From a virus: DNA of 28,765 nucleotides. The first letter of the stretch is position 1, and every line of letters begins with the position of its first letter. Positions 9,302 through 27,488 of this stretch are shown in pieces. The position numbers were made by a program, and so were the translations under genes. The stretch is taken from the IMG/VR virus record IMGVR_UViG_3300012582_000055, positions 1-28,765 of that record. One strand, given 5' to 3'. A model generated the notes under the pieces. It searched no databases. It worked only from the letters and a program-made list of their open reading frames with translations, and had not been told where the DNA came from.

Positions 9302-9303
9302 TT

Positions 9304-9501: not shown

Positions 9502-9502
9502 A

Positions 9503-15069: not shown

Positions 15070-15070
15070 G

Positions 15071-15868: not shown

Positions 15869-15880
15869 ACAGAAATAAAA

Positions 15881-15959: not shown

Positions 15960-15966
15960 CCGAGAT

Positions 15967-16040: not shown

Positions 16041-16048
16041 ACAGAAAC

Positions 16049-16122: not shown

Positions 16123-16131
16123 GTAGAAAAT

Positions 16132-16205: not shown

Positions 16206-16212
16206 AAAGAAA

Positions 16213-16467: not shown

Positions 16468-16482
16468 AATGGTCCTTTAAGA

Positions 16483-16571
16483 TGGAGGAAAGTTACGGAA
16501 TCGAACCGTATCCCGCCTTACGACGAGTCGCTGTTTTCGAGACAGCTACCGACCATTCAGTGCTACTTTCC
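16483..16571 (-). tRNA. tRNA-Ser (anticodon CGA)
   Basis: A class II tRNA with a long variable arm. Acceptor GGAAAGT pairs ACTTTCC perfectly, and the loop CTCGAAA reads TCG. Discriminator is T rather than the usual G. CCA encoded. Its first nine bases overlap the end of the HNH gene upstream. Confidence 0.9.
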
Positions 16572-16982: not shown

Positions 16983-17018
16983 CGATGACTCCCTTGGGGT
17001 CTTTGATGTATTTACAAA

Positions 17019-17107
17019 TGGCGGAGAACCGTCGAATCGAACGGCGTCACCCCTTTCAGGGTGTCACGGTTTTCAAGACCGATGCCCACCATTAGGCGCT
17101 GTTCTCC
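17019..17107 (-). tRNA. tRNA-Ser (anticodon TGA)
   Basis: Class II with long variable arm. Acceptor GGAGAAC pairs GTTCTCC, the loop CTTGAAA reads TCA, G73 as expected for serine, CCA encoded. Confidence 0.93.
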
Positions 17108-17114
17108 GTAAAAT

Positions 17115-17200
17115 TGGCGGAACGAAGAGGACTCGAACCTCTACGACCTTTCGGTCGCTGGTTTAGCAAACCAGTCCGGCTACCATTTCGGCACCGTTCC
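17115..17200 (-). tRNA. tRNA-Ser (anticodon GCT)
   Basis: Class II. Acceptor GGAACGG against TCGTTCC, the loop TTGCTAA in stem CTGGT/ACCAG reads AGC/AGT, G73, CCA encoded. It lies seven bases from tRNA-Ser(TGA). Confidence 0.92.
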
Positions 17201-17265
17201 GTCGAAAATCATATTTCGTACGTCGAAGTTTGCCTTGAAAGCAAACTACTCATCGAAAAACAAAT

Positions 17266-17339
17266 TGGCAGGCCGCGTAGGAATTGAACCCACTCTCGCC
17301 GGGTTGGAGCCGGATGTGCTACCGTAACACTTGCAACCT
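17266..17339 (-). tRNA. tRNA-Trp (anticodon CCA)
   Basis: The anticodon loop CTCCAAC reads TGG. Acceptor AGGTTGC pairs GCGGCCT using G-U at 4-69 and 5-68. G73 is the normal tryptophan discriminator, CCA encoded. Confidence 0.9.
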
Positions 17340-17386
17340 GTAGAAAATTGCCGACCGTACTAGCCAATATACGCACAAAGTTTTTG

Positions 17387-17473
17387 AGGCCCAGCACAGT
17401 TTCGAACTGTGAGCGTCGGACTTCCTCGGGCGCGTGGCTGGCCGTGTCACAGCCCTTTGGACTCGCGTAGACC
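17387..17473 (-). other. tRNA-like element with normal T-arm, no readable anticodon
   Basis: GGTCTAC pairs CTGGGCC (one mismatch), and the T-arm CACAG-TTCGAAA-CTGTG is canonical. The middle holds a GGCTG/CAGCC stem with a nine-base loop, and CCA is absent (TCA instead). It is 87 bases long. Best read as a decayed class II tRNA or a tRNA-like RNA. Confidence 0.45.
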
Positions 17474-17483
17474 AAGTAATGAT

Positions 17484-17571
17484 TGGTGGATAGTGTAGGA
17501 CTCGAACCTACGTAGGACCAAAGGCCCGACTGGTTTACAGCCAGCTAGAATTGCCGCTATCTGAACCATCC
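17484..17571 (-). tRNA. tRNA-Tyr (anticodon GTA)
   Basis: Class II, with a bacterial-type long variable arm. The loop CTGTAAA in stem GCTGG/CCAGT reads TAC/TAT. Acceptor GGATGGT with ACTATCC, A73, CCA encoded. Confidence 0.92.
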
Positions 17572-17581
17572 ACGAAAACTG

Positions 17582-17800
17582 TTATGCTCTAAAACCTGCT
17601 GGTCTTTCCGGTCTCTCGATGCCGGATGTTATTCCGCCTCGCGCTGCTCGCGCGCCACTGTATGATGCGCCAGAAAACTCATGTTGCTGCGGGGCACCAA
17701 AAATACTGGGACTTGAAAGAGCCGATGGTGCTTGCGAATTTGCGCCGCTAAATTTTTCTGGGTGCAATCCCTCAAACCATTCTATGAAATTCTTTGCCAT
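17582..17800 (-). CDS. Small unknown protein (72 aa)
   Basis: The ATG at 17800 has GAGG five bases upstream and is preferred over the longer frame to 17824. The N-terminus MAKNFIEWFEGLHPEKF is helical. The rest is Ser/Ala/Gly/Pro-rich and probably disordered. The gene ends ten bases before tRNA-Tyr. No family is recognised. Confidence 0.55.
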   Translation of the reverse strand: MAKNFIEWFEGLHPEKFSGANSQAPSALSSPSIFGAPQQHEFSGASYSGARAARGGITSGIERPERPAGFRA

Positions 17801-17816
17801 GCGTCCTCGCAAAACT

Positions 17817-17890
17817 TGGAGCACCGCACTGGAATCGAACCAATGCCTCGGCCTTACGAGGGGCGCGTCCTGCCACTGGACTAGCAGTGC
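17817..17890 (-). tRNA. tRNA-Thr (anticodon CGT)
   Basis: The loop CTCGTAA reads ACG; the anticodon stem CGCCC/GGCCG has one C-C mismatch. Acceptor GCACTGC pairs GCGGTGC, T73, CCA encoded. Confidence 0.88.
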
Positions 17891-17896
17891 TCAAAA

Positions 17897-17940
17897 CTTG
17901 GCGGGTCCCACCAACGCATTGCGCTGTATTTTCCCCGTAG
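17897..17940 (-). other. Hairpin remnant in tRNA spacer
   Basis: The 50 bases between tRNA-Gly(GCC) and tRNA-Thr(CGT) end in a GGTG-GGACC-CGCC hairpin followed by CCA and AAGTTTT, like the 3' end of a tRNA. It may be a deleted tRNA that kept its 3' processing signal. Confidence 0.3.
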
Positions 17941-17944
17941 AAAT

Positions 17945-18018
17945 TGGAGCGGAAGGCGGGAATCGAACCCGCGCCCGGACCTTGGCAAGGTCCTGTTCTA
18001 CCACTATACCACTACCGC
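17945..18018 (-). tRNA. tRNA-Gly (anticodon GCC)
   Basis: The loop TTGCCAA in stem GGACC/GGTCC reads GGC/GGT. Acceptor GCGGTAG against CTTCCGC has a U-U mismatch at 5-68. T73, CCA encoded. Its first seven bases overlap the end of HNH gene 2. Confidence 0.92.
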
Positions 18019-18383
18019 TCAGAAAATTGTCTTAGCTTAGGAGCAAGCAACATCATGTGCTCATACTCCCAAAATTCACCTTTGATACGATTGCATTTCC
18101 AGCAACACGGTACAACGTTATTTGCCTCGTGTCCTTTCGCACTGTTCTTTCTATCTAATCCGTGTCCTGTTGGGCTTAAAATCCCGAGACAGTAGTGACA
18201 TTTATTATCTTGAATAAGTGCCACATAAAAATTCAGACTCCACAAAGGGTCCGTTGACGGAGTTTCCTCGACTCTCAGTTTCTTCTTAAGATGCGTATGT
18301 CTGCCGTGAGGTAACCGAGCAATCCTACTTGCTTTATTCCGCTTCTTTTCCTTGCGAACTTCTGGCGTATCTATTTTTCTCAT
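18012..18383 (-). CDS. HNH endonuclease 2 (123 aa)
   Basis: The ATG at 18383 has GGAGGG four bases upstream; a longer frame to 18527 would run through a tRNA gene. The HNH core is at residues about 61-101: CHYC, then the GHGLDRKN segment with the catalytic-type His and Asp, NNVVPCCWKCN with the paired cysteines, and RIKGE. The N-terminal 45 residues are very basic. The TAG stop is within the acceptor of tRNA-Gly(GCC). This is a second free-standing homing nuclease candidate, not closely similar to HNH 1. Confidence 0.87.
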   Translation of the reverse strand: MRKIDTPEVRKEKKRNKASRIARLPHGRHTHLKKKLRVEETPSTDPLWSLNFYVALIQDNKCHYCLGILSPTGHGLDRKNSAKGHEANNVVPCCWKCNRIKGEFWEYEHMMLLAPKLRQFSER

Positions 18384-18409
18384 GTCACCCTCCCGAAAGA
18401 GTGATAGTC

Positions 18410-18429
18410 GGGGAGGTTCGGGCCTCCCC
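18410..18429 (-). promoter_or_regulatory. GC-rich hairpin upstream of HNH 2
   Basis: A seven-base stem (GGGGAGG with CCTCCCC) with a six-base loop lies between tRNA-Thr(TGT) and the HNH 2 start. No U-run follows. It could slow transcription, protect a processed end, or control HNH translation. Confidence 0.45.
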
Positions 18430-18450
18430 AACAAATTGTAGCTACAAACT

Positions 18451-18533
18451 TGGAGCAGGATAGAGGACTCGAACCTCTGAGGATTTCTCGGCGGTTTACA
18501 AAACCGCTGCTGTCGCCACTGAGCCAATCCTGC
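18451..18533 (-). tRNA. tRNA-Thr (anticodon TGT) with extra-long variable arm
   Basis: The loop TTTGTAA in stem GCGGT/ACCGC reads ACA. Acceptor GCAGGAT pairs ATCCTGC perfectly. T73, CCA encoded. The variable region is 12 bases and can pair GAG with CTC, a class II feature that is abnormal for threonine tRNA. Confidence 0.85.
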
Positions 18534-18543
18534 TTTGAAAACT

Positions 18544-18617
18544 TGGAGCTTCGTAAAGGAATTGAACCTTTACTTCCGCATTACCAATGCGGCGTTCTGC
18601 CGTTGAACTAACAAAGC
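18544..18617 (-). tRNA. tRNA-Thr (anticodon GGT)
   Basis: The loop TTGGTAA in stem CCGCA/TGCGG reads ACC/ACT. Acceptor GCTTTGT with ACGAAGC, T-loop TTCAATT, T73, CCA encoded. Confidence 0.93.
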
Positions 18618-18625
18618 CCGGAAAC

Positions 18626-18796
18626 TTATTTGCAAGACTCGAATATCGTCGCTGCTGATTTCATCGCCCAATACGTGAGGTCGGTGGTTAAGTCCCAAAC
18701 TTCTCCGGTGCGACAATCGCGAGCGGTCAACTTAAGACCTTTCGGCAAATTCACACGGTACCCGGAAAATGTTCGTACGACGATTCGTTCTCTCAT
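18626..18796 (-). CDS. Small protein between tRNAs, no Shine-Dalgarno (56 aa)
   Basis: The ATG at 18796 directly follows the tRNA-Gly(TCC) tail, as CCA-ATTTT-ATG, so after tRNA processing the mRNA would be nearly leaderless. The product is basic, then amphipathic (MRERIVVRTFSGYRVNLP onward), with a central DCRTGEVWDLTTDLTYW motif. It ends eight bases before tRNA-Thr(GGT). No family is recognised. Confidence 0.5.
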   Translation of the reverse strand: MRERIVVRTFSGYRVNLPKGLKLTARDCRTGEVWDLTTDLTYWAMKSAATIFESCK

Positions 18797-18801
18797 AAAA
18801 T

Positions 18802-18875
18802 TGGAGCGGGTAATCGGACTCGAACCGATACACTCAACTTGGAAGGATGAGGTGCTGCCATTACACCACACCCGC
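18802..18875 (-). tRNA. tRNA-Gly (anticodon TCC)
   Basis: The loop CTTCCAA reads GGA/GGG; stem TCATC/GTTGA has a U-U mismatch at 30-40. Acceptor GCGGGTG with TACCCGC, T73, CCA encoded. Confidence 0.9.
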
Positions 18876-18883
18876 TCAGAAAA

Positions 18884-18974
18884 TTTGCGATGGCGTATTG
18901 ACCGCCTCACGCACTCGTCGGTGCGCCCGGTAGTGACCGGGCTAGCCCACTCTACGAATGGGCGCGTTTGCAAA
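18884..18974 (-). other. Cloverleaf tRNA-like RNA without CCA (91 nt)
   Basis: An outer stem TTTGC/GCAAA encloses four arms in tRNA order: GCCCA/TGGGC, CCCGG/CCGGG with a six-base loop TCACTA, GCAC/GTGC in the variable-arm position, and GGCG/CGCC with loop GTCAATA. The outer stem is followed by TTTTC, not CCA. The intact helices argue against random decay. Confidence 0.5.
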
Positions 18975-18976
18975 AT

Positions 18977-19050
18977 TGGTTGCAGGGGTGGGAGACGAAC
19001 CCACGGAGGTCTGCTTATGAGACAGACTTGAATACCCATTCTCCGCTGCA
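18977..19050 (-). tRNA. tRNA with CAT anticodon (elongator Met likely)
   Basis: The loop CTCATAA reads ATG, or ATA if the C34 were lysidine-modified. Acceptor TGCAGCG with CCCTGCA has a C-C mismatch at 6-67, and base pair 1-72 is T-A, so it is not a typical initiator. The D-arm is unusually small. A73, CCA encoded. A separate Ile(TAT) tRNA makes elongator Met the likelier call. Confidence 0.85.
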
Positions 19051-19058
19051 ATTGAAAC

Positions 19059-19139
19059 TTATTTGTGCATCATCCATGCGATATAAACGATGGAGATGAT
19101 TACGCCCAAGACGTTACAAACTGTTCGCACCACTGCCAT
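19059..19139 (-). CDS. Possible 26-aa transmembrane peptide
   Basis: A 26-codon frame from an ATG at 19139 overlaps the end of the 80-aa gene by 26 bases in another frame. It consists of a hydrophobic segment (VCNVLGVIISIVYIAW) with a basic N-side. It stops eight bases before the tRNA with anticodon CAT. No ribosome site better than AGAAG is visible, so coupling would be needed. Confidence 0.35.
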   Translation of the reverse strand: MAVVRTVCNVLGVIISIVYIAWMMHK

Positions 19140-19356
19140 CTTCTGGTCTAGACTGAGCGACGGCTTTGTCATCTTTCTTCTTTGTGCGACCTTCGTACCA
19201 CTTACGTCGCAACCCTAGGTATTCTAGTTGTGCCTTCAAAGATTCTTCCGCTGCGATTCTCATCGCCCGGTCGTCTCTCCAAATCCCAACTAGGAAGTAC
19301 AGGGCGACCAAATCAACTGCCAGTGCTGCAACTGAAGCTGCGTCTGCTACAGTCAT
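19114..19356 (-). CDS. Small membrane protein (80 aa)
   Basis: Residues 9-26 form one hydrophobic segment (ALAVDLVALYFLVGIW inside it). A charged helix follows (residues 28-55), then a Lys/Asp-rich tail. GGTGA lies before the ATG. An N-terminal anchor with a soluble helical rest would fit an inner-membrane spanin or a regulator. It lies between tRNA-Ile(GAT) and the CAT-anticodon tRNA, with a possible overlapping membrane peptide downstream. Confidence 0.55.
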   Translation of the reverse strand: MTVADAASVAALAVDLVALYFLVGIWRDDRAMRIAAEESLKAQLEYLGLRRKWYEGRTKKKDDKAVAQSRPEDGSGANSL

Positions 19357-19371
19357 GTGTCACCCAAAAAT

Positions 19372-19445
19372 TGGTAGCCAATGAAGGACTCGAACCTTCA
19401 TTTCCCGCTAATCAGGCAGGCGTCTTGCCGTTATACCAATCGGCT
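19372..19445 (-). tRNA. tRNA-Ile (anticodon GAT)
   Basis: The loop CTGATTA in stem CCTGC/GCGGG reads ATC/ATT. Acceptor AGCCGAT with ATTGGCT (G-U at 5-68), A73, CCA encoded. Confidence 0.92.
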
Positions 19446-19451
19446 ACAAAA

Positions 19452-19814
19452 CTATTTGCGCGTCAAGTACTTCATCCAATCATCGTCACGCTGTTTACTT
19501 TCTTCCCAGCGTTCCATGATTTGTTCCATTGTCATCCATGTCGGACTGCACACGTATGCGAACGGATTGTTGTACTCGCGACCGCGCTCCCACAAACTTT
19601 GATTGCCGTCTCTGCTCCAACCGTATACTTCATTGTTGGCGCATTCGTAGATGTCGGGCATCAGAAAATCATCCCAGTCTACGTTGTTTGCCAGAGCGTT
19701 TCGAAGCGCGTGATTCTGCGTGCGACGAAGACTTCTGGCTGCATCCATCTTGTCATTGTGGGCGCTGCGGTTCCCAGTAACAGACGAATACGGCTTGCGA
19801 TAACTCTTTGACAT
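19452..19814 (-). CDS. Unknown protein (120 aa) inside the tRNA array
   Basis: The ATG has GGAGG eight bases upstream, one of the best Shine-Dalgarno sites in the locus. The product is polar, basic in the first 45 residues, then acidic and aromatic (DWDDFLMPDIYECANNEV and a Trp-rich C-terminal helix). There is no membrane segment or known motif. It lies between tRNA-Ala and tRNA-Ile(GAT) and reads like a real, well-translated gene. Confidence 0.7.
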   Translation of the reverse strand: MSKSYRKPYSSVTGNRSAHNDKMDAARSLRRTQNHALRNALANNVDWDDFLMPDIYECANNEVYGWSRDGNQSLWERGREYNNPFAYVCSPTWMTMEQIMERWEESKQRDDDWMKYLTRK

Positions 19815-19867
19815 GGTGTTAACCTCCGTAGGTTTACCTAATACATGTCATGTTATCTCCTTGAAAT

Positions 19868-19941
19868 TGGTGGACCATGAGGGAATCGAACCCTCAACAC
19901 CTCGGTGCAAGCGAGGTAGTATCCCGTTTACCTAACGGCCC
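19868..19941 (-). tRNA. tRNA-Ala (anticodon TGC)
   Basis: The loop CTTGCAC in stem CCTCG/CGAGG reads GCN. Acceptor GGGCCGT with ATGGTCC; the usual alanine G3-U70 pair is present. A73, CCA encoded. Confidence 0.93.
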
Positions 19942-19950
19942 AAAACTTGT

Positions 19951-19999
19951 GTCAACCTTTTTCGGCTGACTTTCACAAAATCAACCTCTTTAGGCTGAC
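19951..19999 (-). repeat. Two tandem 20-nt stem-loops
   Basis: Two copies about 30 bases apart (19951-19970 and 19981-19999) fold as GTCAGCC, a six-base A-rich loop, then GGTTGAC or GGTTGAT. Loops differ (GAAAAA, TAAAGA) while stems are kept. They fill the spacer between tRNA-Ala and tRNA-Glu(TTC). Confidence 0.6.
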
Positions 20000-20007
20000 T
20001 CGAAACT

Positions 20008-20083
20008 TGGCAGAGCTAATCGGATTCGAACCGATGTGAGCACCTTGAAAGGGTGCCATCCTAGGCCACTAGATGATAACTCC
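20008..20083 (-). tRNA. tRNA-Glu (anticodon TTC)
   Basis: The loop CTTTCAA in stem GCACC/GGTGC reads GAA/GAG. Acceptor GGAGTTA with TAGCTCT, G73, CCA encoded. Confidence 0.93.
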
Positions 20084-20092
20084 ACTGAAACT

Positions 20093-20166
20093 TGGTACCC
20101 GTAGGCGGATTCGAACCGCCGTTACTTCCGTGAGAGGGAAGCGTCCTGCCGCTAAACGATATGGGC
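20093..20166 (-). tRNA. tRNA-Glu (anticodon CTC)
   Basis: The loop CTCTCAC in stem CTTCC/GGAAG reads GAG. Acceptor GCCCATA with TACGGGT has an A-C mismatch at 5-68. A73, CCA encoded. Confidence 0.9.
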
Positions 20167-20176
20167 ACTGAAAAAT

Positions 20177-20267
20177 TGGTTGTCGGCTTCGGATTCGAAC
20201 CGAACAGCAACGCTAATCTAGCGCGAAGGCTTTATAAGAGCCTGCTCCGAACCGTTCGGAACCGACA
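20177..20267 (-). tRNA. tRNA-Ile (anticodon TAT), class II-shaped
   Basis: The loop CTTATAA in stem AGGCT/AGCCT reads ATA. Acceptor TGTCGGT with GCCGACA, A73, CCA encoded. A perfect five-pair variable arm (CGCTA/TAGCG) and an unusual D-arm make it 91 bases, quite unlike normal isoleucine tRNAs. Charging identity is therefore uncertain. Confidence 0.82.
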
Positions 20268-20273
20268 AAAATC

Positions 20274-20362
20274 TGGGAACCCAGGGGTCATTCACCCCCG
20301 CCATCCTACGAGTCCGGTACCGGATATCGTAAGCGTTCACTCTACCGCGAACTGCGTCCCCA
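20274..20362 (-). other. Cloverleaf tRNA-like RNA without CCA (89 nt)
   Basis: Seven-pair outer stem TGGGGAC/GTTCCCA; D-like arm GTTC/GAAC with a GG-containing loop; anticodon-position stem TACGA/TCGTA whose 15-base loop contains the palindrome TCCGGTACCGGA; T-position arm GGGG/CCCC with loop TGAATGA. It is followed by GATTTTT instead of a discriminator plus CCA. Confidence 0.5.
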
Positions 20363-20369
20363 CAGAAAT

Positions 20370-20445
20370 TGGTACCCAATGAGTGAATCGAACACTCCCG
20401 GTCTCGGTGTAAGCGAGATGCATACGACCAGTTTGCTAATCGGGT
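20370..20445 (-). tRNA. tRNA-Val (anticodon TAC)
   Basis: The loop CTTACAC in stem TCTCG/CGAGA reads GTN. Acceptor ACCCGAT with ATTGGGT, A73, CCA encoded. Only valine tRNA seen. Confidence 0.92.
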
Positions 20446-20459
20446 ACAGAAAATTGTGC

Positions 20460-20526
20460 CTTCCCTAGTAAGTTCAACAGACCGAGAAGGTCTTGCCACG
20501 GATATCTGCTCGTTTACTCGCCGTGG
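20460..20526 (-). other. Two hairpins in long tRNA spacer
   Basis: Minus strand: CCACGG/CCGTGG with a 19-base loop, then AGACC-TTCTC-GGTCT. The segment lies between tRNA-Lys(TTT) and tRNA-Val and has no ORF or T-loop. Identity unknown. Confidence 0.35.
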
Positions 20527-20533
20527 TAAAAAT

Positions 20534-20608
20534 TGGTCGGTCGCCAGAGATTCGAACTCTGACCCCATCGCTTAAAAGGCGAGTATGCAACCTTAACACT
20601 TGCAACCG
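20534..20608 (-). tRNA. tRNA-Lys (anticodon TTT)
   Basis: The loop CTTTTAA reads AAA/AAG. Acceptor CGGTTGC with GCGACCG, T-loop TTCGAAT, A73, CCA encoded. Confidence 0.92.
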
Positions 20609-20617
20609 ACTGAAAAT

Positions 20618-20693
20618 TGGTGGACTGCCCGGGACTTGAACCCGGAACACGTTCCTTAAGAGGGAAGTATGTTGCCGCTAACACCTGCGGTCC
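20618..20693 (-). tRNA. tRNA-Lys (anticodon CTT)
   Basis: The loop CTCTTAA in stem TTCC/GGAA reads AAG. Acceptor GGACCGC with GCAGTCC has a C-A mismatch at 5-68. A73, CCA encoded. It follows the RNase P RNA by eight bases. Confidence 0.92.
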
Positions 20694-20701
20694 ACTGAAA
20701 C

Positions 20702-21027
20702 TTTTTCTGGTCGCGCTGTAGCCCGGTTTCTGTCGAGGACGAACATTCCTCTAAGCCTTCTACCCGGCTCTCATCGCGCTCAACAAACGCTCAAGCCCTA
20801 TTTGAAGTTGCACCTGTGTGGAGTGCCTTCGCTCGAATGAATCCGGAAATTACCCGGAAGAATCCGGAACTTCCGGAATACGAAGCCTTACCCGTGCGAT
20901 TACTCGCCCCGCAACTTCCACGGCACAGTGTTGAGATGTGACCGGAACTTCCTCCATACCCATATAGCGGTTGATTACGATGTAATCTGCCGCTATAACG
21001 GTACAGCGTTCGTCTACGCTACCAAAA
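20702..21027 (-). ncRNA. rnpB: RNase P RNA, bacterial A-type-like (about 326 nt)
   Basis: RNase P RNA is the catalytic RNA that cuts tRNA precursors at the mature 5' end. Both universal signatures are present: GAGGAAGTTCCGG (20942-20954) corresponds to the 5' core GAGGAAAGUCCGG, and GACAGAAACCGGGCTACA (20717-20734) to the 3' core GACAGAAnCCGGCUUA. TCCGGT and ACCGGG from these form helix P4. P2 is a perfect seven-pair GACGAAC/GTTCGTC, P1 pairs GGTAGCG with CGCGACC, and P3 is a long hairpin (TATAGCGG and GATTAC arms). CAAATAGGGCTTGAGCG and GCCGGGTAGAAGGCTTAGAG match the P15-P18-side segments of the E. coli RNA. It sits between tRNA-Lys(CTT) and tRNA-Cys in the same orientation, presumably cotranscribed. 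Ends are approximate. Confidence 0.93.
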
Positions 21028-21028
21028 T

Positions 21029-21172
21029 GTGGGGCTTAACTTTTCGTTAGTAAGCCTCTGAAAGAAACGACCCGGCTTGCCAGACTATGCTGGGGCCGAG
21101 AAACTTTTCGAAACCTTACGTGGCGGCACTATCATGCGCTTATGGGGCTGGATACCCCCGCTGGGGTTTCGA
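21029..21172 (-). other. Structured spacer between RNase P RNA and tRNA-Cys
   Basis: A 63-base element (21109-21171) is closed by a perfect seven-pair stem CGAAACC/GGTTTCG and contains a GGGG/CCCC hairpin and a GTG/CAC hairpin; it is followed by AAAAGTTTC. The rest (21029-21100) holds a GGCTT/AAGCC stem with inner AAC/GTT pairing. No ORF, T-loop or CCA. Confidence 0.4.
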
Positions 21173-21175
21173 ACT

Positions 21176-21249
21176 TGGAGCACTGTGTTGGAATCGAACC
21201 AACGATGACTGTTTTGCAGACAGGTAGCTTACCACTTGCCTAACAGTGC
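21176..21249 (-). tRNA. tRNA-Cys (anticodon GCA)
   Basis: The loop CTGCAAA reads TGC/TGT. Acceptor GCACTGT pairs ACAGTGC perfectly. T73, the cysteine discriminator, CCA encoded. The tRNA immediately upstream of the RNase P RNA. Confidence 0.94.
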
Positions 21250-21284
21250 GAATCTCCGACGCGGTTTCCCGCGCCTTTGTCAAT

Positions 21285-21368
21285 TGGTACGCGCCGAGGG
21301 AATCGGACCCTCATGACTTTCGTCGGGGCGTTTTAAGTGCCCTGCGTATGCCTTTCCGCCACGCGCGT
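21285..21368 (-). tRNA. tRNA-Leu (anticodon TAA)
   Basis: Class II. The loop CTTAAAA reads TTA/TTG; stem GGGCA/CGCCC has an A-C pair next to the loop. The T-loop is TCCGATT (second T to C). Acceptor CGCGC paired, A73, CCA encoded. Confidence 0.88.
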
Positions 21369-21373
21369 AAATT

Positions 21374-21460
21374 TGGTCGCCCACACAGGAGTTGAACCTG
21401 TACGCCCTCTCGGGCGGCGGGTTTTGAATCCGCTGCGTCTGCCAGTTCCGCCAGCAGGCG
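21374..21460 (-). tRNA. tRNA-Leu (anticodon CAA)
   Basis: Class II. The loop TTCAAAA reads TTG. Acceptor CGCCTGC with GTGGGCG, variable arm GCCC-GAGA-GGGC, A73, CCA encoded. It shares the A-C closing mismatch of the anticodon stem with Leu(TAA). Confidence 0.92.
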
Positions 21461-21462
21461 AT

Positions 21463-21537
21463 TGGTAGCCCATGAAGGACTCGAACCTTCATCGCTCGGT
21501 TCGTAGCCGAGCATCCTATCCATTGAACGAACAGGCC
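21463..21537 (-). tRNA. tRNA-Arg (anticodon ACG)
   Basis: The loop CTACGAA in stem CTCGG/CCGAG; A34 would need deamination to inosine to read CGT/CGC/CGA. Acceptor GGCCTGT with ATGGGCT, A73, CCA encoded. Only two bases separate it from tRNA-Leu(CAA). Confidence 0.92.
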
Positions 21538-21547
21538 ACTGTAAAAT

Positions 21548-21622
21548 TGGAGGTCCCACTCGGATTCGAACCGAGATAGCTGCCTTAGAAGTGCAGCGTC
21601 CTATCCGTTGAACGACAGGACC
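21548..21622 (-). tRNA. tRNA-Arg (anticodon TCT)
   Basis: The loop CTTCTAA reads AGA/AGG. Acceptor GGTCCTG with TGGGACC, T73, CCA encoded. Its 5' end abuts the stop codon of the 33-aa zinc mini-gene. Confidence 0.93.
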
Positions 21623-21724
21623 TTAAACTTTTCCCGTCCCCTTGCAGTTCGTGCACGAGCGTTGTCGCCCCCACGGGTCACACGGACCCAACTTCGAACC
21701 ATTGCAATTAGGACAGACTTTCAT
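21623..21724 (-). CDS. 33-aa double-CxxC mini-protein
   Basis: An ATG at 21724 forms part of the spacer after tRNA-Leu(TAG), as CCA-ATTTT-ATG, and opens 33 codons. Two zinc-binding pairs, CPNCNG and CTNCKGTGKV, copy the CxxCxGxG style of DnaJ zinc fingers in miniature. The stop touches the first base of tRNA-Arg(TCT). There is no Shine-Dalgarno, so translation would be leaderless after tRNA processing. Confidence 0.5.
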   Translation of the reverse strand: MKVCPNCNGSKLGPCDPWGRQRSCTNCKGTGKV

Positions 21725-21729
21725 AAAAT

Positions 21730-21813
21730 TGGTGCCGCGCGAGGGACTCGAACCCCCACTCCCGAAGGAACTAGTTTCTAAAACTAGCGCGTCTGCCATT
21801 CCACCAGCACGGC
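21730..21813 (-). tRNA. tRNA-Leu (anticodon TAG)
   Basis: Class II. The loop TTTAGAA in stem CTAGT/ACTAG reads CTN. Acceptor GCCGTGC with GCGCGGC, variable arm TCC-TTCG-GGA, A73, CCA encoded. Confidence 0.93.
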
Positions 21814-21856
21814 ACAGAAAACTTTGCGGATGTTAATAAACGAGTAGAAGTTAAAT

Positions 21857-21941
21857 GTGGAATCCATCCGCCAACCCACAAGATACTCTTGCTCGTTATT
21901 CTTAGAACTTGCCGGACGCTCTACCGTGGAGCTACATCCAC
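21857..21941 (-). other. tRNA-like element with canonical D-arm, no CCA
   Basis: Outer stem GTGGA/TCCAC, TA at positions 8-9 and a perfect D-arm (GCTC, CACGGTA, GAGC) look like a tRNA 5' half. The remainder has a CAAGA/TCTTG hairpin and no recognisable anticodon arm or TTC loop. TCCAC is followed by ATTTAAC. Decayed tRNA or tRNA-like RNA. Confidence 0.4.
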
Positions 21942-21979
21942 TTCCTCGCGCCGCATACACGGCTCACTCGCGAAGTTGC

Positions 21980-22068
21980 GTGGAGTCGGGATTCGAACCC
22001 GAACCTTCCGGCTCTTCCGCCTGCCAGTTATTCATGCAGGACTTAATCACCTTGGGCTGACACTGGTG
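21980..22068 (-). other. tRNA-like element with canonical T-arm
   Basis: The T-arm TCGGG-TTCGAAT-CCCGA is perfect, preceded by a GC-rich arm and a CCTGC/GCAGG stem with an 11-base loop, as in a distorted class II tRNA. No complementary 5' acceptor is found and CCA is absent (CTCCACGCAA). Probably a tRNA remnant. Confidence 0.4.
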
Positions 22069-22414
22069 GTTCCCGTCGAGCGGCTTTCAGGTAGCGGTCA
22101 CCGCGCTGCTCGACTTGATGTCGTCGCGGGACCATCGCTTTGCCATCACAATAAATTCTCTGTAATGGACTTAAATCCGAGGAACTATTTATCAACGCGC
22201 GGTTCCCGGACGCGCCTTGGGTGAGTATCACCTCACCGTGTGCCTTCTGACCCTTTACCAGCTAGCGAGTCTGCTGTCGGGGGCGACCCGAAGCATTGCG
22301 GCACTGTTGCAACATCTTTTTGACTGACAGGGCGGTGGCATACGGCGGAACTTTCAGCATTGTTCCTTCCGCTGTCCTTCGCTTTGGCCTACGCTGACAG
22401 TAGGTCAGTCAAAA
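22067..22414 (-). ncRNA. Large structured RNA region of unknown identity (about 350 nt)
   Basis: No convincing ORF is present, but helices follow each other closely. An 11-pair stem TTTTGACTGAC/GTCAGTCAAAA (22404-22414 with 22317-22327) encloses a 98-base unit. Further hairpins are GGTGAG/CTCACC (22220-22237), GCGCG/CGCGC (22197-22215), and an eight-pair CCATTACA/TGTGATGG (22143-22168). TGGTCCC/GGGAACCA encloses GTCGAGC/GCTCGAC (22067-22134). It is flanked by tRNA-Pro(CGG) and a tRNA remnant on the same strand. It may be one RNA or several. Confidence 0.5.
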
Positions 22415-22416
22415 CT

Positions 22417-22494
22417 TGGTCGGGAAAGCAGGATTTGAACCTGCGGTCTCTTCTTTCCGAAAGAAGCGGGAACTCCAGACTTCCCTACTTCCCG
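22417..22494 (-). tRNA. tRNA-Pro (anticodon CGG)
   Basis: The loop TTCGGAA in stem CTTCT/AGAAG reads CCG. Acceptor CGGGAAG with TTTCCCG, A73, CCA encoded. Its TAG at positions 8-10 acts as the stop codon of the HNH 3 frame. Confidence 0.92.
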
Positions 22495-22844
22495 ACAGTA
22501 AAATTGGCTGGGGCAGCAGGACTCGAACCTGCAATGCGCTTACGCGCTGGGTGGGTAACAGCCACCTGCTGTACCAATTGAGCCACACCCCAGTAGATTT
22601 CATCCTCGACTTCCGCGTGACAATTCGCACAAAGCAAATCACACTTGTCGAGTTCGGCTCTAATCTTTTCCCAACTTCTAGTTGAAGAAATAGATAGACC
22701 GAATAATTTTGTTTTCGGGTCTCGATGATGAAACGTAAGTGCTCGAAAGCACTTTGCGTATCCGCATCGCCCACATTTCCCGCCGAGATATTCGACGGCG
22801 CGCCGCTTCGTTCTACGACGCCATTCTATCACTTTATTATTCAT
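22485..22844 (-). CDS. HNH endonuclease 3, frame running through tRNA-Asn
   Basis: The ATG at 22844 has AAGGTGAG upstream. The first 85 residues form a compact HNH protein: basic N-terminus, CGRCGY zinc pair, catalytic-type FHHRDP with paired histidines, and LLCANCHAEVE with the second cysteine pair. No stop follows; the frame continues through the whole of tRNA-Asn and ends at the TAG inside tRNA-Pro(CGG), adding about 33 residues encoded by tRNA sequence. Either the original stop was lost or the tail is tolerated. It is probably a homing nuclease. Confidence 0.78.
   Translation of the reverse strand: MNNKVIEWRRRTKRRAVEYLGGKCGRCGYAKCFRALTFHHRDPKTKLFGLSISSTRSWEKIRAELDKCDLLCANCHAEVEDEIYWGVAQLVQQVAVTHPARKRIAGSSPAAPANFTVGK
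22505..22592 (-). tRNA. tRNA-Asn (anticodon GTT), class II-shaped
   Basis: The loop CTGTTAC in stem GGTGG/CCACC reads AAC/AAT. Acceptor TGGGGTG with TGCCCCA, G73, CCA encoded. The 17-base variable region forms GCGC-GTAA-GCGC, abnormal for asparagine. The whole gene is overlapped by the HNH 3 frame. Confidence 0.85.
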
Positions 22845-22856
22845 CAGACTCACCTT

Positions 22857-22935
22857 TTGGTGGTCTAATGGTAAGACTGACAGCCACTCGGTTTGAGTCC
22901 GAGAACTTTTACTACCCGGGCGTTACTCCGGTAAA
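22857..22935. other. Ambiguous tRNA-like spacer (D-arm on plus strand)
   Basis: On the plus strand GTCT-AATGGTA-AGAC is a perfect D-arm and CTCGG-TTTGAGT-CCGAG an anticodon- or T-arm-like hairpin. On the minus strand the block CCGGAGTAACGCCCGG resembles the odd T-arm of the degenerate tRNA at 16049-16122. TTTTAC/GTAAAA closes one end. It lies between tRNA-Asp and the HNH 3 ribosome site. Orientation is uncertain. Confidence 0.3.
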
Positions 22936-22937
22936 AT

Positions 22938-23014
22938 TGGCGCGACTGACGGGATTCGAACCCGTGATTTCTCCCGTGACAGGGGAGTGTCGTGGGCCGC
23001 TAGACCACAATCGC
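22938..23014 (-). tRNA. tRNA-Asp (anticodon GTC)
   Basis: The loop CTGTCAC in stem CTCCC/GGGAG reads GAC/GAT. Acceptor GCGATTG with CAGTCGC, G73 as usual for aspartate, CCA encoded. Confidence 0.93.
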
Positions 23015-23025
23015 GCGGAAAATTT

Positions 23026-23122
23026 GGGCTTTTCGAAGAGCAACCGTTACCCACCTTGCGGCGAATAAGCCCGTGGATGCTCTGCCCCGAGTGTCCTTCC
23101 CACCGGACAGGGTGGCTCGGTT
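23026..23122 (-). ncRNA. Structured spacer with pseudoknot potential
   Basis: Two six-pair helices interleave: GGGCTT/AAGCCC (23067-23072 with 23026-23031) and AGAGCA/TGCTCT (23078-23083 with 23037-23042), the arrangement of an H-type pseudoknot. Upstream lies CCGAG/CTCGG enclosing CCACC/GGTGG. No ORF or tRNA signature between tRNA-Pro(TGG) and tRNA-Asp. Confidence 0.45.
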
Positions 23123-23129
23123 TGAAACT

Positions 23130-23208
23130 TGGTCGAGGAACCAGGATTCGAACCTGGGGTCTCATGCTTCCAAAGCACGCGGGAACGGCCAAACTTCCCC
23201 ATTCCTCG
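23130..23208 (-). tRNA. tRNA-Pro (anticodon TGG)
   Basis: The loop TTTGGAA reads CCN. Acceptor CGAGGAA pairs TTCCTCG perfectly, T-arm CCAGG/CCTGG, A73, CCA encoded. Confidence 0.93.
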
Positions 23209-23216
23209 AAAAACTC

Positions 23217-23276
23217 TTACACCAGACAATCCGGTACTTCGATAACTTCGTCGTCGATTGGCTCTGGGTCAATCAT
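23217..23276 (-). CDS. Possible 19-aa acidic peptide
   Basis: An ATG at 23276 opens 19 codons (MIDPEPIDDEVIEVPDCLV) ending nine bases before tRNA-Pro(TGG). AGGGG lies 10 bases upstream, at the base of a hairpin. Too short to judge; listed because an ATGA overlap joins it to an even shorter frame upstream. Confidence 0.3.
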   Translation of the reverse strand: MIDPEPIDDEVIEVPDCLV

Positions 23277-23285
23277 AAATTTGTG

Positions 23286-23342
23286 CCCCTATCCCTCGCG
23301 GGCGCTGGATAGGCTTGGCGGTCACTATTCTGGGGCGACCCC
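23286..23342 (-). other. Double hairpin upstream of the 19-aa frame
   Basis: Minus strand: GGGG-TCG-CCCC, then CCTATCC/GGATAGG with a 12-base GC-rich loop, ending beside the AGGGG of the 19-aa frame. It could be a translation control element or another small RNA of the locus. Confidence 0.4.
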
Positions 23343-23366
23343 AATGCCATGACAGGCGCGTTATCG

Positions 23367-23435
23367 TTAATCCGAAATCTCGATGAAACCTTCATGCCCA
23401 TCCGCGATTGTGAAACCGCTGTCGTGTTCTTTCAT
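23367..23435 (-). CDS. Possible 22-aa peptide
   Basis: The ATG at 23435 has AAAGG seven bases upstream. The initiation region GGTTTCACGATGAA is repeated exactly before the 53-aa gene. The product MKEHDSGFTIADGHEGFIEI is acidic. The repeated start region suggests duplication of a translation signal. Confidence 0.4.
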   Translation of the reverse strand: MKEHDSGFTIADGHEGFIEISD

Positions 23436-23445
23436 CGTGAAACCT

Positions 23446-23607
23446 TTATCCTTCGAACGTGTCGCGAGTGACGATGACTCCGTCGAACCCGCCTTCGGTG
23501 ATGCCACGACATTCCCAGCCATCGAATCCGATGCTGCCGCCGAAGTTCACAGTGTAGATGCCGGGTGAAATCGTTGTTGCTCGACCCAAACTCTCTGTGT
23601 CCTTCAT
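23446..23607 (-). CDS. Small protein with leaderless-type start (53 aa)
   Basis: The ATG at 23607 follows the -10 box of a strong promoter by nine bases, so the mRNA would carry only a few bases of leader. The product is Gly-rich and beta-like with one Cys (NFGGSIGFDGWECRGITEGG inside it). It is followed 10 bases later by the 22-aa frame with the same start context. Function unknown. Confidence 0.55.
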   Translation of the reverse strand: MKDTESLGRATTISPGIYTVNFGGSIGFDGWECRGITEGGFDGVIVTRDTFEG

Positions 23608-23616
23608 CGTGAAACC

Positions 23617-23645
23617 ATCCTAGCACATCTTGCAAACTTTGTCAA
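23617..23645 (-). promoter_or_regulatory. Sigma70-like promoter P1
   Basis: TTGACA (23640-23645) and TAGGAT (23617-23622) are separated by 17 bases, with TGTGC just before the -10. It points at the 53-aa gene, whose ATG lies nine bases beyond the -10. Confidence 0.82.
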
Positions 23646-23659
23646 GCACTTTCTTTGAA

Positions 23660-23729
23660 AATTTTCGGGGCAGTTTTGGCTCGTGCTAGCTGCCCCTGTA
23701 GGAGGTGCTGCGTAAGCTACTGCGATTCG
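23660..23729 (-). ncRNA. Possible small RNA from promoter P2
   Basis: Promoter P2 would start RNA near 23729. About 33 bases later comes a strong hairpin, GGGGCAG/CTGCCCC (23667-23696), followed by GAAAATTTTC, a weak U-run. No ORF of note lies between. It may be a short RNA of about 65 nt or a leader ahead of P1. Confidence 0.4.
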
Positions 23730-23735
23730 AGGACC

Positions 23736-23764
23736 ATGCTACCACAGTTCCCGAATTTTGTCAA
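23736..23764 (-). promoter_or_regulatory. Sigma70-like promoter P2
   Basis: TTGACA (23759-23764), 17-base spacer, TAGCAT (23736-23741), with CTGTGG directly before the -10, the same extension as promoter P3. Confidence 0.82.
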
Positions 23765-23773
23765 GCGAAATCT

Positions 23774-24058
23774 TTAGACGCCCGGATAGTGATGCGCGAA
23801 CTTCGGAGTCGCTGGCTGGTCACCGTGCTTACCAACCTCTTCCTTGCTCGACGGAAGACCCTTGTGCGAGCCGTTGGCGCTTACGCCCAACGAGTTCGAA
23901 CGTCCGGCCTTCAATGAGGCGTGGTCGTGCGAAGCATCCGAAACCTTCTCGGCCTTCGGTACTGCGCGACCCGGATACTTGTGTGCATGCGGCTGGTCGC
24001 CACTCTGCGCTTTTTCCGGTGCATGAGCCTGCGATGCTGCTGTGGTGTTTTCTGACAT
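23774..24058 (-). CDS. Polar, disordered small protein (94 aa)
   Basis: The ATG has GAGGT eight bases upstream. The product is rich in Ala, Ser, His, Lys and Pro, with no hydrophobic core, and is probably disordered. Histidine pairs occur near both ends. It lies between tRNA-His and promoter P2, downstream of promoter P3. No family recognised. Confidence 0.6.
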   Translation of the reverse strand: MSENTTAASQAHAPEKAQSGDQPHAHKYPGRAVPKAEKVSDASHDHASLKAGRSNSLGVSANGSHKGLPSSKEEVGKHGDQPATPKFAHHYPGV

Positions 24059-24087
24059 CTGAATTACCTCTGTACGTCTCTAAATTT

Positions 24088-24162
24088 TGGGGTGAAGAGC
24101 GGGAATCGAACCCTGCGCCGAGGGATTCACAGTCCCCCGTGCTACCATTACACCATCGACAC
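24088..24162 (-). tRNA. tRNA-His (anticodon GTG)
   Basis: The loop CTGTGAA reads CAC/CAT. C73 and a G at position -1 (24163) are the histidine identity marks. Acceptor GTGTCGA against TCTTCAC has mismatches at 4-69 and 5-68, and the T-stem is weakened at its base. CCA encoded. First tRNA after promoter P3. Confidence 0.87.
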
Positions 24163-24844: not shown

Positions 24845-25056
24845 GCCTTGCTCGTGCAAGCGTAGGAGAATAGCGTTCTAGCTAAACTCTGAACCTGCGA
24901 TGGAGTCAATGTTATGTTGACGGTCTCTCCACAAGAGCCATCGTTCTTCGCTTCACCGCGAACGGTGATTACGAGATTCTGATGCTCATCGACGTTGAGA
25001 GACAAATACTCCGGATAGCTGCTACTCGGAGCAGTGTATGCGAATACGTTATTCAC
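24841..25056 (-). CDS. Small beta-rich protein (71 aa), GTG start
   Basis: GTG at 25056, with AAAAGG six bases upstream, is the best start; the longer frame to 25167 would lie inside the neighbour. The start overlaps the stop of the 61-aa portal-like gene. The product has alternating beta residues (LNVDEHQNLVITVRGE) and a C-terminal helix with SQVQSLARTLF. Function unknown. Confidence 0.6.
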   Translation of the reverse strand: MNNVFAYTAPSSSYPEYLSLNVDEHQNLVITVRGEAKNDGSCGETVNITLTPSQVQSLARTLFSYACTSKA

Positions 25057-25234
25057 TGGAAACCTTTTCAGCCGCTCGCTGTGCCCGATTGATAAATTCA
25101 AACACCTCAACGGGAAGCGGCGGCATCGGAAGGAAGTCAATCGAAGAATCAGCTTCCCACATCTCATCAGACCAATTCATCGGGTCTTGTTGTCGAAGAA
25201 GAACTTCGGCAACGCGACTCGCGCTCGGTTCCAT
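25049..25234 (-). CDS. 61-aa protein resembling a portal segment
   Basis: Residues 33-56 (FLPMPPLPVEVFEFINRAQ onward) align without gaps to portal residues 435-458 (FLQMPPVPPQAFEFIQQSQ onward), with about half the positions identical including the MPP-x-P and FEFI cores. The remaining N-terminal 30 residues are acidic and unrelated. Start TAATG is coupled to the upstream gene; no separate ribosome site. It could bind a portal partner or compete with portal in assembly, or be a remnant. Confidence 0.65.
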   Translation of the reverse strand: MEPSASRVAEVLLRQQDPMNWSDEMWEADSSIDFLPMPPLPVEVFEFINRAQRAAEKVSSE

Positions 25235-25447: not shown

Positions 25448-25861
25448 TTAATCTCCATTCAGACCGTTATTCAATGCGGTCACTCGCGGGATGTTGTTCC
25501 AATTTCGGTCGAGCATATCGCTGGCATTCACCTTGACAACGGTGTGCTCATGCGGCTCGATGAAGCGAACCTCTGTGCCCCATTCAATCTTAACAAGGTG
25601 GTCACCGAGATTTTGGAAAATGAAAATCTGTCTATAATCGCTCGGGTCCATCTGGACCGTACACTGCACTCCTGCTTCCGAACAATAAGTGTTGAACTGG
25701 CGCGTCATGTACTTGCCAGCATCGGCGGATACGTGAAGTCTGCTGAGTGCTTGTCGATTCTCTGTTGGTTGTGCTAGAGGTCGTGGTGCTGCCTCTTGTG
25801 GGCGGCGCGGCACGATGGCTTCGTACAACACCTTCAAAAAGTTCTTAGCGGTGCCGCTCAT
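25448..25861 (-). CDS. Unknown protein (137 aa)
   Basis: The start overlaps the previous stop as ATGA. The N-terminal 45 residues are basic and Pro-rich. The C-terminal 85 look like a small beta-rich domain (CTVQMDPSDYRQIFIFQNLG and WGTEVRFIEPHEHTVVKV). Two cysteines occur at residues 59 and 66. No family is recognised. It is a full member of the coupled operon. Confidence 0.65.
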   Translation of the reverse strand: MSGTAKNFLKVLYEAIVPRRPQEAAPRPLAQPTENRQALSRLHVSADAGKYMTRQFNTYCSEAGVQCTVQMDPSDYRQIFIFQNLGDHLVKIEWGTEVRFIEPHEHTVVKVNASDMLDRNWNNIPRVTALNNGLNGD

Positions 25862-26142
25862 GCGAATGCTCTCGCGTGAAGGTCTGCAATACTACGGCCT
25901 GCGGCTGCACCCAACTCATCAGCAGCTTGTGCCACAATTGAATCCATCGCCGCTATTAAAGCGAAGTCACTGAAACTTGAATAATCTGCGTACTGCTCCA
26001 CTAAGTGAGGCATGAATGGAGTATATGGCGCTATTTCTTTTGCCACGCACTCGGGTCCCATCACGGTCGATAGGCTTGGGGCGACTGCGGCCCCGGCTAT
26101 CCCCACCCCTAGCCATTTGAAAAACTTGCGGCGATTCATCAT
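25858..26142 (-). CDS. Tat-signal protein with a capsid-like segment (94 aa)
   Basis: The N-terminus MMNRRKFFKWLGVGIAGAAV has a twin-arginine motif (NRRKFFK) and a hydrophobic core, predicting folded export through the Tat system. Residues 47-90 (LVEQYADYSSFSDFALIAAM onward, then DELGAAAGRSIADL) follow the conserved helix of N4-gp56 capsid proteins and resemble this phage's capsid (YANFSSF...ELGYQAGQSISEL). Exporting a capsid-like helix makes little sense for head building, so this could be a signal-bearing fusion, a decoy or a chance arginine pair. Starts and stops overlap both neighbours. Confidence 0.62.
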   Translation of the reverse strand: MMNRRKFFKWLGVGIAGAAVAPSLSTVMGPECVAKEIAPYTPFMPHLVEQYADYSSFSDFALIAAMDSIVAQAADELGAAAGRSIADLHARAFA

Positions 26143-26813
26143 GTCTCGGTAATCGCTTTTAGAATAGCTGCTGGATTGAATGCATGACCCGCCTTGACTA
26201 CGTACTTTGTGAATGACGGGTTATTCATCAATTCCAAAACGAGAGGATAAGCCTTTTTCAGTTCTGCGCGGGCATTCGCTTTTTCTAATTCTTGTACGCG
26301 ACGGTCGAGGTCTGCGGTTACGTCGTAGACACCCGCTAACTTCGAGTTCACGGTTTGTTGGTCAATGGCGCTTGGTCCGACCTTTGCAAGAGCAACTTGA
26401 CTCTCGACTTGACCTACGCGTTCGTTAAGGCGCTGGATGGTCTTCAACAGACTTTCCACGTCTTGGCGAACTTGGTCGAATCCTTTCTGGGTCGAATCAC
26501 GGAGATTCGTCAACGATTGAACGTTATTCTGGTCGCGAAGCGTTTGACGGCCTTCGCGGTCCTCTGCCTCTTTCTTCAACTTATCGATGCTTTCGCCTTG
26601 ATAAATCAATGCTAGGTGCGCACGTTCTGCTTTCTCTTTAGCCTCGACTGCGATGCCTACTGCTCTCTCAGCTTTGAGACGAACCTCGTCGCGGAGTGCG
26701 GCGACAGCATCGGTGTTCTGACGCGTCTGACGCGCAACATTCACCAAGCGGTCAGAGAACTTGTCGAGCAAAGTTGCGACCTTGCTCAGAATCTGGGACT
26801 TCGTATTTGACAT
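26139..26813 (-). CDS. Coiled-coil protein with portal-like C-terminus (224 aa)
   Basis: Residues 5-180 are charged heptad-like helices with many Gln, Arg, Glu and Lys, predicting a long coiled coil. The last 40 residues (KKAYPLVLELMNNPSFTKYV onward) align to portal residues 566-605 (KKEMAQALPIMIQLLNNPTF onward), sharing L-x-NNP-x-F, AG and F-x-x-x-AI. AAGGAAG precedes the ATG. It may bridge portal and another component. The name is descriptive only. Confidence 0.7.
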   Translation of the reverse strand: MSNTKSQILSKVATLLDKFSDRLVNVARQTRQNTDAVAALRDEVRLKAERAVGIAVEAKEKAERAHLALIYQGESIDKLKKEAEDREGRQTLRDQNNVQSLTNLRDSTQKGFDQVRQDVESLLKTIQRLNERVGQVESQVALAKVGPSAIDQQTVNSKLAGVYDVTADLDRRVQELEKANARAELKKAYPLVLELMNNPSFTKYVVKAGHAFNPAAILKAITET

Positions 26814-26825: not shown

Positions 26826-27488
26826 TTACTTTCCGCGTTTGCGGGATTGGGTCTTTCTCTTTCGAATCTTCTTTAGTTGTACCGGGGTGCTATTTGAAGG
26901 CACCACCGTTGCGGTTGCTTTTCGCTTCTTGATGCGAGCGTATGCTGCGTGGATGTCGCGCTCCACTTCTGACTCTGGAGCTTCTTTCGGGTCTGGATGC
27001 GGAAATACGCCACCGAGAATCGGGTCGCCCGATTTAATGCGCCCACTTTCTAGTCCAAAATTTAGTACATTTAGAAATACGTCGGTCGATTCTCTAACAC
27101 GACGGCGGTATTCGTCCGAATAAGTCGGCACGGGTCCTGGGTCGCCTCTCTTGCTGAACCATTCTGAGGAAGCCTTGGTATTAGTGCTGGGAAGGTCGTA
27201 CAGTTCATTGTATGCGGATATCAATTCCTTCTGGTCGCTGCGAATCTTCAAACCACAATTGTAGAGGCATTTGATTTCTGTAACGCCATCAGGGAATGTG
27301 AAGATGCTGAGATTGTAATCTTTCGAGGCGGCAGTAAGTCCGCGCGACCGCCCACCACCTTTAAGATGGTTGCAGGGGTAGCGTAACTTGCTCTTGAATA
27401 ATTGAAGCACGCTCGCAAGGGTGTACTTCCCCGGAACAAGTTTGTTCAACTGCTCAACGAGGAATTGCTCGACTGTCTGTACTTCCAT
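26826..27488 (-). CDS. Unknown basic-tailed protein (220 aa), first gene of the operon
   Basis: The N-terminal 110 residues appear globular (alpha/beta) with two cysteines (CLYNC near residue 75). The middle is Pro/Ser-rich. The last 40 residues are strongly basic (KKIRKRKTQSRKRGK), suited to nucleic-acid binding. AAGGA precedes the ATG, and a perfect seven-pair hairpin lies just ahead of that site. No family is recognised. Confidence 0.65.
   Translation of the reverse strand: MEVQTVEQFLVEQLNKLVPGKYTLASVLQLFKSKLRYPCNHLKGGGRSRGLTAASKDYNLSIFTFPDGVTEIKCLYNCGLKIRSDQKELISAYNELYDLPSTNTKASSEWFSKRGDPGPVPTYSDEYRRRVRESTDVFLNVLNFGLESGRIKSGDPILGGVFPHPDPKEAPESEVERDIHAAYARIKKRKATATVVPSNSTPVQLKKIRKRKTQSRKRGK

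Follow-up and report, generated by a model that had tools for sequence, protein, structure and literature searches.

Small genes in soil phage groups were found to encode fast-changing proteins in which pieces of the phage's own head proteins stand behind an export leader or a coiled coil. The existence of a protein class that pairs a leader or coiled coil with head-protein pieces is firm. This architecture suggests that the pieces may act as baits for whatever recognizes the head proteins. The window analyzed here is a whole IMG/VR virus record (28,765 bases), for which 71 related IMG/VR loci were fetched for comparison; the comparison genomes are metagenomic contigs, many of which are incomplete.

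Genomic Setting and Parent Genes

Nearly all genes of the window are carried by the minus strand, including 32 tRNA genes (15.8-24.2 kb). The latter occupy 8.4 kb (15794-24162) between the small-gene cassette described below and the structural genes, with HNH-like small ORFs among them. The structural genes include the large terminase subunit TerL (7140-4834, minus strand), the portal protein (2729-4846, minus strand; PF23899 SU10_portal in Pfam, 1.6e-16; phrog_1216, 2.3e-24), a small gene between the portal and a scaffold candidate (minus strand), the scaffold candidate itself (974-2275, minus strand), which lies between the portal and the major capsid protein (MCP), and the MCP (1-930, minus strand; phrog_1357 major head protein, 1.8e-4), whose gene is cut by the contig end. 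The segments of the portal gene that are parental to the pieces lie at 3017-3148 and 3455-3556 (minus strand). The PDB match of the portal is only partial (9d83), and the names crown and clip/stem used below for portal pieces follow from portal domain order, not from structure. A collagen-like GXY-repeat protein is also encoded within the structural genes (14404-15090).

The portal places Tunturiibacter phage Tunturi_3, an acidobacterial podovirus (PMC11924767), as the closest annotated relative (35% identity), and the window MCP is 36% identical to the annotated MCP of the same phage. The window phage lineage is a distant relation of Tunturi_3.

A Coiled-Coil Protein with a Portal-Derived C-Terminus

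The focal gene (26139-26813, minus strand), delineated by its ORF, its homologs, and AF2 prediction, encodes a 224-aa coiled-coil protein with a portal-derived C-terminal segment. It is located ~22 kb from the portal gene on the same strand, consistent with a preliminary description which had placed it far from the head genes. The same description had aligned its last 40 residues to portal residues 566-605. The match is real, with slightly different limits: residues 180-223 (26145-26276, minus strand), a portal crown-like segment detected by blastp, HMM, and shuffle test, align without gaps to portal residues 567-610, with 16 of 44 residues identical (36%; blastp, 2e-8), and the previously noticed words NNP-x-F and AG-x-x-F...AI are common to both sequences in this alignment. 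The alignment score of 91 far exceeds those of 2000 shuffles (mean 27, maximum 48; Gumbel p about 5e-10). An HMM built from 20 related portals matched the focal ORF at iE 2.9e-6, with zero decoy matches in a search of about 2,600 ORFs and an equal number of reversed decoys. The N-terminal 178 residues showed no match to the portal (shuffle test, p = 0.10), nor did the C-terminus match TerL (shuffle test, p 0.96). The similarity is limited to the 44-residue segment, and a PF23899 search gave no match to the focal ORF. These results support descent of the focal C-terminus from the portal, two to three helices of which it reproduces.

AF2 predicts helices at residues 2-70, 76-143, and 152-196 (mean pLDDT 80), which agrees with the long coiled coil proposed earlier, and short helices at 199-207 and 214-223 in the portal segment. 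The best-kept stretch of the family is the coiled-coil core REGRQTLRDQNNVQSL...RLNERVGQVESQ (26397-26567, minus strand). No match to the focal ORF was found by tblastn against annotated phages or by a single-sequence scan of viral contigs, and a scan with alignment A5 returned only already known members.

It had been suggested that this protein is a portal-docking or scaffold-like regulator. Portal descent of the segment is supported; the scaffold-like part of the proposal is not. The slot between portal and MCP is already filled by the candidate at 974-2275, ~22 kb from the focal gene; the focal C-terminus and the scaffold candidate look alike by eye (KNDPQFVKQLLAYGIKI), but the similarity is not significant (E 0.11, shuffle p 0.07); and most coiled-coil homologs lack the portal segment and have other C-terminal modules. 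It is possible that the focal protein is a portal-binding or portal-mimicking regulator.

A Partner Gene with a Tat-Type Leader and an MCP Helix

The stop codon of the focal gene overlaps by 4 nt (ATGA) with a partner gene (25858-26142, minus strand), whose 94-aa product consists of a Tat-type leader and an MCP segment. The leader, MNRRKFFKWLGVGIAGAAVAPS (26062-26139, minus strand), matches PF10518 with an E-value of 3.3e-4 and 20.9 bits, under the cutoff of 22.7. Among ten leaders tested, the PF10518 cutoff was passed by one (a homolog) and that of TIGR01409 by four (several group-B leaders, see below), the copy in the window being below. In the alignment of family A1 (9 members), NRR.F is invariant and is followed by a weakly hydrophobic stretch. 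Motif and composition of the leader fit a Tat-type signal, which would direct export or membrane insertion.

The second part of the partner is a segment of the long MCP helix: residues 47-90 (25873-26004, minus strand) correspond to MCP residues about 89-131, as indicated by blastp (4e-13 against the MCP of the same phage), HMM (2.6e-10), and AF2, which predicts one helix at 45-93 with pLDDT of about 90. The partner does not contain a complete HK97-like fold, its MCP part being mainly one long helix. A second MCP strand may be present in related linkers, with a weak match. Bacterial genomes scanned for the Tat-MCP protein gave no match.

The linkers of Tat-MCP-type proteins are also variable. 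In G012, G014, G007, G009, G020, and G022, cysteine-rich variants (CTCG...IGTAEEWCPVHG; C.C..RSFWEG.C..C), possibly zinc-binding, stand in place of the YTTYVMGQDA linker; the latter is similar to residues 254-267 of the MCP.

Other Genes of the Cassette and Specificity of the Pieces

The partner gene is followed by a gene for a 137-aa protein (25448-25861, minus strand), which has an ATGA overlap with it and homologs in G001, G007, G016, G004, G009, G008, and G014. Upstream of the focal gene is a gene encoding 220 aa (26826-27488, minus strand), 59-63% identical in G001, G004/G023, G014, G020, and G002; a cysteine-containing segment of 72 residues in its product is common (44%) to small portal-adjoining genes in G006 and G008.

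A further portal piece was detected in a 61-aa ORF (25049-25234, minus strand), residues 27-60 of which correspond to portal residues 431-464, a clip/stem-like segment. The evidence for this piece is moderate (blastp, 0.009 among 12,729 ORFs; regional HMM, 1e-4; shuffle p 2.6e-6). In G022, a 125-aa ORF (23144-23521) contains the MCP helix fused to portal 410-460, both of which are kept in separate ORFs in the window. Stand-alone pieces of portal 562-612 occur in G006, G008, and G011. Pieces of MCP 156-176 and of a 353-aa protein encoded near the tail genes were also observed in small ORFs (G018, 32579-32872; G014, 11443-11712).

When 42 protein families (each at least 230 aa) were compared across 20 genomes, portal and MCP were the parents of the isolated pieces within unrelated small ORFs. 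Partial matches of other families were mostly tail-fibre/collagen-type repeats or split genes, apart from one case in the tail region of G011. No reversed decoy matched portal or MCP, and no portal, MCP, or TerL pieces were found in the control phages T7, N4, Tunturi_4, and Tunturi_3. The Tunturi_3 'portal protein' ORF111 (198 aa), suspected from its label to be a homolog, gave no match.

Recurrence and Evolution in Related Genomes

The Tat-MCP gene was detected in ten distinct related genomes (G000, G001, G004/G023, G007, G012, G014, G016, G017, G018, and G022), on the same strand and upstream of the portal; in G022, leader and MCP helix are two adjacent ORFs. Homologs of the coiled-coil protein are present in G016, G001, G014, G020, G004/G023, and G002, and the coiled-coil gene directly precedes the Tat-MCP gene in G000, G001, G004/G023, G014, G016, and G020, the ORF at this position in G020 having a weak MCP helix match only. 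The coiled-coil core is kept and the C-terminus is swapped between genomes: the portal segment is attached to the coiled coil in the window and, weakly, in G004/G023 (0.003-0.03, moderate evidence), most homologs lack it, and some of the other C-terminal modules are also found as separate ORFs in other genomes. The coiled-coil protein is shown to consist of a conserved coiled coil and an interchangeable C-terminus, and its gene is part of a small-gene cassette that precedes the structural operon.

Between genomes, portals are 84-92% and MCPs 94-98% identical, whereas identity is 28-51% for the focal coiled coil and 41-60% for the Tat-MCP protein. Identity by codon position (2 > 1 >> 3) and dN lower than a largely saturated dS indicate purifying selection. 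The MCP pieces resemble the MCP of their own genome no more than they do other MCPs, and therefore represent old, separate, and fast-evolving lines rather than fresh copies. The group A TerL proteins also occur as two types about 43-46% identical beside portals 84-92% identical, which points to TerL allele swapping.

A Second Phage Group and Cultured Phages

A scan with the leader identified phages with unrelated TerL and portal (group B). Their leader, MNRRSFFKFLGIGAATAAVAP, precedes varying passengers and is always located between TerL and portal; the passengers differ at this one locus while the TerLs are 57-75% identical. Four contigs have a copy of the TerL nuclease behind the leader (G038, 9e-35; L254, 2e-33; L251, 6e-33; G034, 9e-29). 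In these copies, the motif I Asp (GVDTADG) is replaced by Q or E and the FDD before RASAQ is absent, while the motif II E is kept; given the replaced Asp and the lost FDD, the copies are predicted to be nuclease-inactive. Three other contigs have a portal piece in the same position (G035/G036, 3e-8; G033, 1e-5). A domain without known parent here is common to G031, G033, and G037, and others are unassigned; the group-B passengers that match no known parent here include those of G032, L255, and the G031/G037/G033 second ORF. Profile alignment of the group-A and group-B portals failed, hence we make no claim that the pieces of both groups come from the same portal region. In addition, one group-B contig (L242, G031) encodes a 1344-aa TerL (210-4244), in which an insertion of about 340 aa splits the alignment to other group-B TerLs and is suggestive of an intein.

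In G039 (L278), whose TerL is distant from the others, a leader protein (9131-9511) is encoded directly upstream of TerL. Its passenger matches residues 192-235 of the MCP of the same contig (p about 2e-4, moderate) and no other large ORF, and is probably an MCP piece.

Cultured phages also contain such a protein. Tunturi_1 has a single Tat-like ORF, ORF97 (59906-60217), whose passenger corresponds to MCP residues 5-56 (8e-8), and Tunturi_2 has the same protein. A scan of viral contigs with ORF97 found none. ORF96 of Tunturi_1 was considered as a further MCP piece and was not significant.

Possible Functions

The partner with its Tat-type leader and MCP segment, the third ORF with a portal piece, and the recurrence of TerL and MCP pieces elsewhere move the reading from a docking factor to a family of head-protein mimics. 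Mimicry is favored over an enzymatic or fixed structural role by three features: a passenger that is swapped behind a constant leader, evolution that is fast next to conserved parents, and a dead copy of an enzyme. We tentatively favor, as plausible rather than probable, that the pieces are head-protein mimics or baits, and most likely serve as decoys to sequester host proteins that sense MCP, portal, or terminase. The pieces would bind whatever recognizes these proteins, the leader would deliver the bait to the inner membrane or the Tat translocase, and the coiled coil would render the bait multivalent or bridge it. The most likely target would be a host sensor of late phage proteins, known examples of which are CapRel and Thoeris for MCP, SpbK for the portal clip, and Avs1-4 for terminase and portal. 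Ahead of the appearance of real capsid parts, the cassette would retain such a sensor at the membrane or export it by Tat hitchhiking.

This decoy model follows from two lines of background: the parents are known sensor triggers, and Tat can carry hitchhiking partners. MCP triggers bacterial sensors (PMC9712102, PMC12578639); the portal clip/stem is a sensor trigger as well (PMC12847820), terminase and portal trigger Avs1-4 (PMC12931631), and partner proteins are exported via Tat hitchhiking (PMC4273604). In its most specific form, Tat-leader baits made from own late proteins would, in several lineages, clear host capsid, portal, and terminase sensors from the cytosol before assembly via hitchhiking or membrane trapping, with the coiled coil as a second bait and multivalent trap; we regard this full version as speculative and unlikely.

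Several observations argue against decoys. Known sensors are cytosolic, so export would need hitchhiking or tethering. SpbK and Avs4 bind the clip, the stem, and part of the wing, whereas the focal piece resembles the crown. Coiled-coil homologs mostly lack the portal segment, most members have a leader that scores under the curated Pfam cutoff, and Tunturi_3, the closest isolate, shows no such piece. In addition, conservation among head proteins is highest in MCP, portal, and TerL, so that their overlap with sensor targets could be a coincidence.

Membrane-tethered adaptors of assembly or packaging are a possible but doubtful alternative. Here, the pieces would insert at portal, capsid, or motor interfaces, and the leader would tether prohead assembly to the inner membrane; at the portal vertex, the coiled coil would serve as an accessory or initiation factor. 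Prohead initiation in T4 occurs at the membrane, every identified parent is a head or packaging protein, the dead TerL copy retains its fold and not its catalytic acids, and the genes share the strand of the structural operon and lie within or upstream of it, all of which would suit adaptors. However, the type of piece varies among close relatives at one locus, fast-evolving pieces beside parents 84-98% identical are not the pattern of a conserved fit to a partner that is itself conserved, and Tunturi_3 lacks the pieces.

Fragments taken from oligomeric proteins are a classic type of dominant negative, and swappable pieces fit competition between related phages; the proteins might therefore interfere with co-infecting or superinfecting phages, as dominant-negative subunits or by membrane capture of a rival's late proteins. 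As the pieces show no greater similarity to other MCPs than to their own, self-inhibition would be expected unless timing or affinity separates the two, and we consider interference rather unlikely. It is improbable that the proteins are Tat-pathway or membrane effectors whose passenger is arbitrary filler taken from genes of the same phage: the leader varies least and certain group-B passengers (G032, L255, and the second ORF of G031/G037/G033) have no known parent here, but MCP, TerL, or portal features are still recognizable in passengers over long divergence, and the parents that were identified all belong to the head or packaging proteins. Non-functional debris from partial gene duplications, which short pieces and variable junctions might suggest, is highly improbable in view of the conserved position, the 4-nt coupling in several genomes, frames open in about 10 genomes, and the above pattern of codon-position identity and dN/dS.

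Phage head proteins are prime triggers of bacterial immunity. If the mimic and decoy reading is correct, a leader with swappable pieces of MCP, portal, or dead terminase nuclease would give a direct handle on how phages hide these proteins, and ORF97 of Tunturi_1 and Tunturi_2 is a cultured example with which the class is testable now. If the function is assembly instead, head-protein pieces reused behind similar leaders in several lineages would represent a new phage protein architecture.

Comparison with Known Systems

Such proteins were not described in the libraries and papers searched (mostly non-subscription literature), and no phage decoy built from trigger fragments was found in these papers. 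The SU10-type portal (PF23899, phrog_1216) supplied the focal C-terminal segment as well as the segment in the 61-aa ORF; unlike it, the pieces hold 34-44 of about 705 residues and are placed on unrelated N-terminal parts. Phage scaffolding proteins are likewise helical and coiled coil and may have a head-binding C-terminus, but the focal gene is located elsewhere, has a separate candidate for that role in the same genome and no significant match to it, evolves fast, and has a swapped C-terminus. The leaders share with Tat signal peptides (PF10518, TIGR01409) the (N/S)RRxFFK motif and an Ala/Gly-rich, weakly hydrophobic stretch, and differ from typical ones in their borderline profile scores, unclear cleavage site, and passengers that are pieces of phage head proteins. 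ORF97 of Tunturi_1 and Tunturi_2, annotated as 'hypothetical protein', resembles the window partner in joining a Tat-type leader to an MCP piece, yet belongs to another phage lineage and carries another part of MCP (residues 5-56). Finally, the triggers of the sensors Avs1-4, CapRel, Thoeris ThsB, and SpbK (MCP, portal, and terminase) are the parents of the pieces; these sensors are host proteins, whereas the pieces are encoded by the phage.
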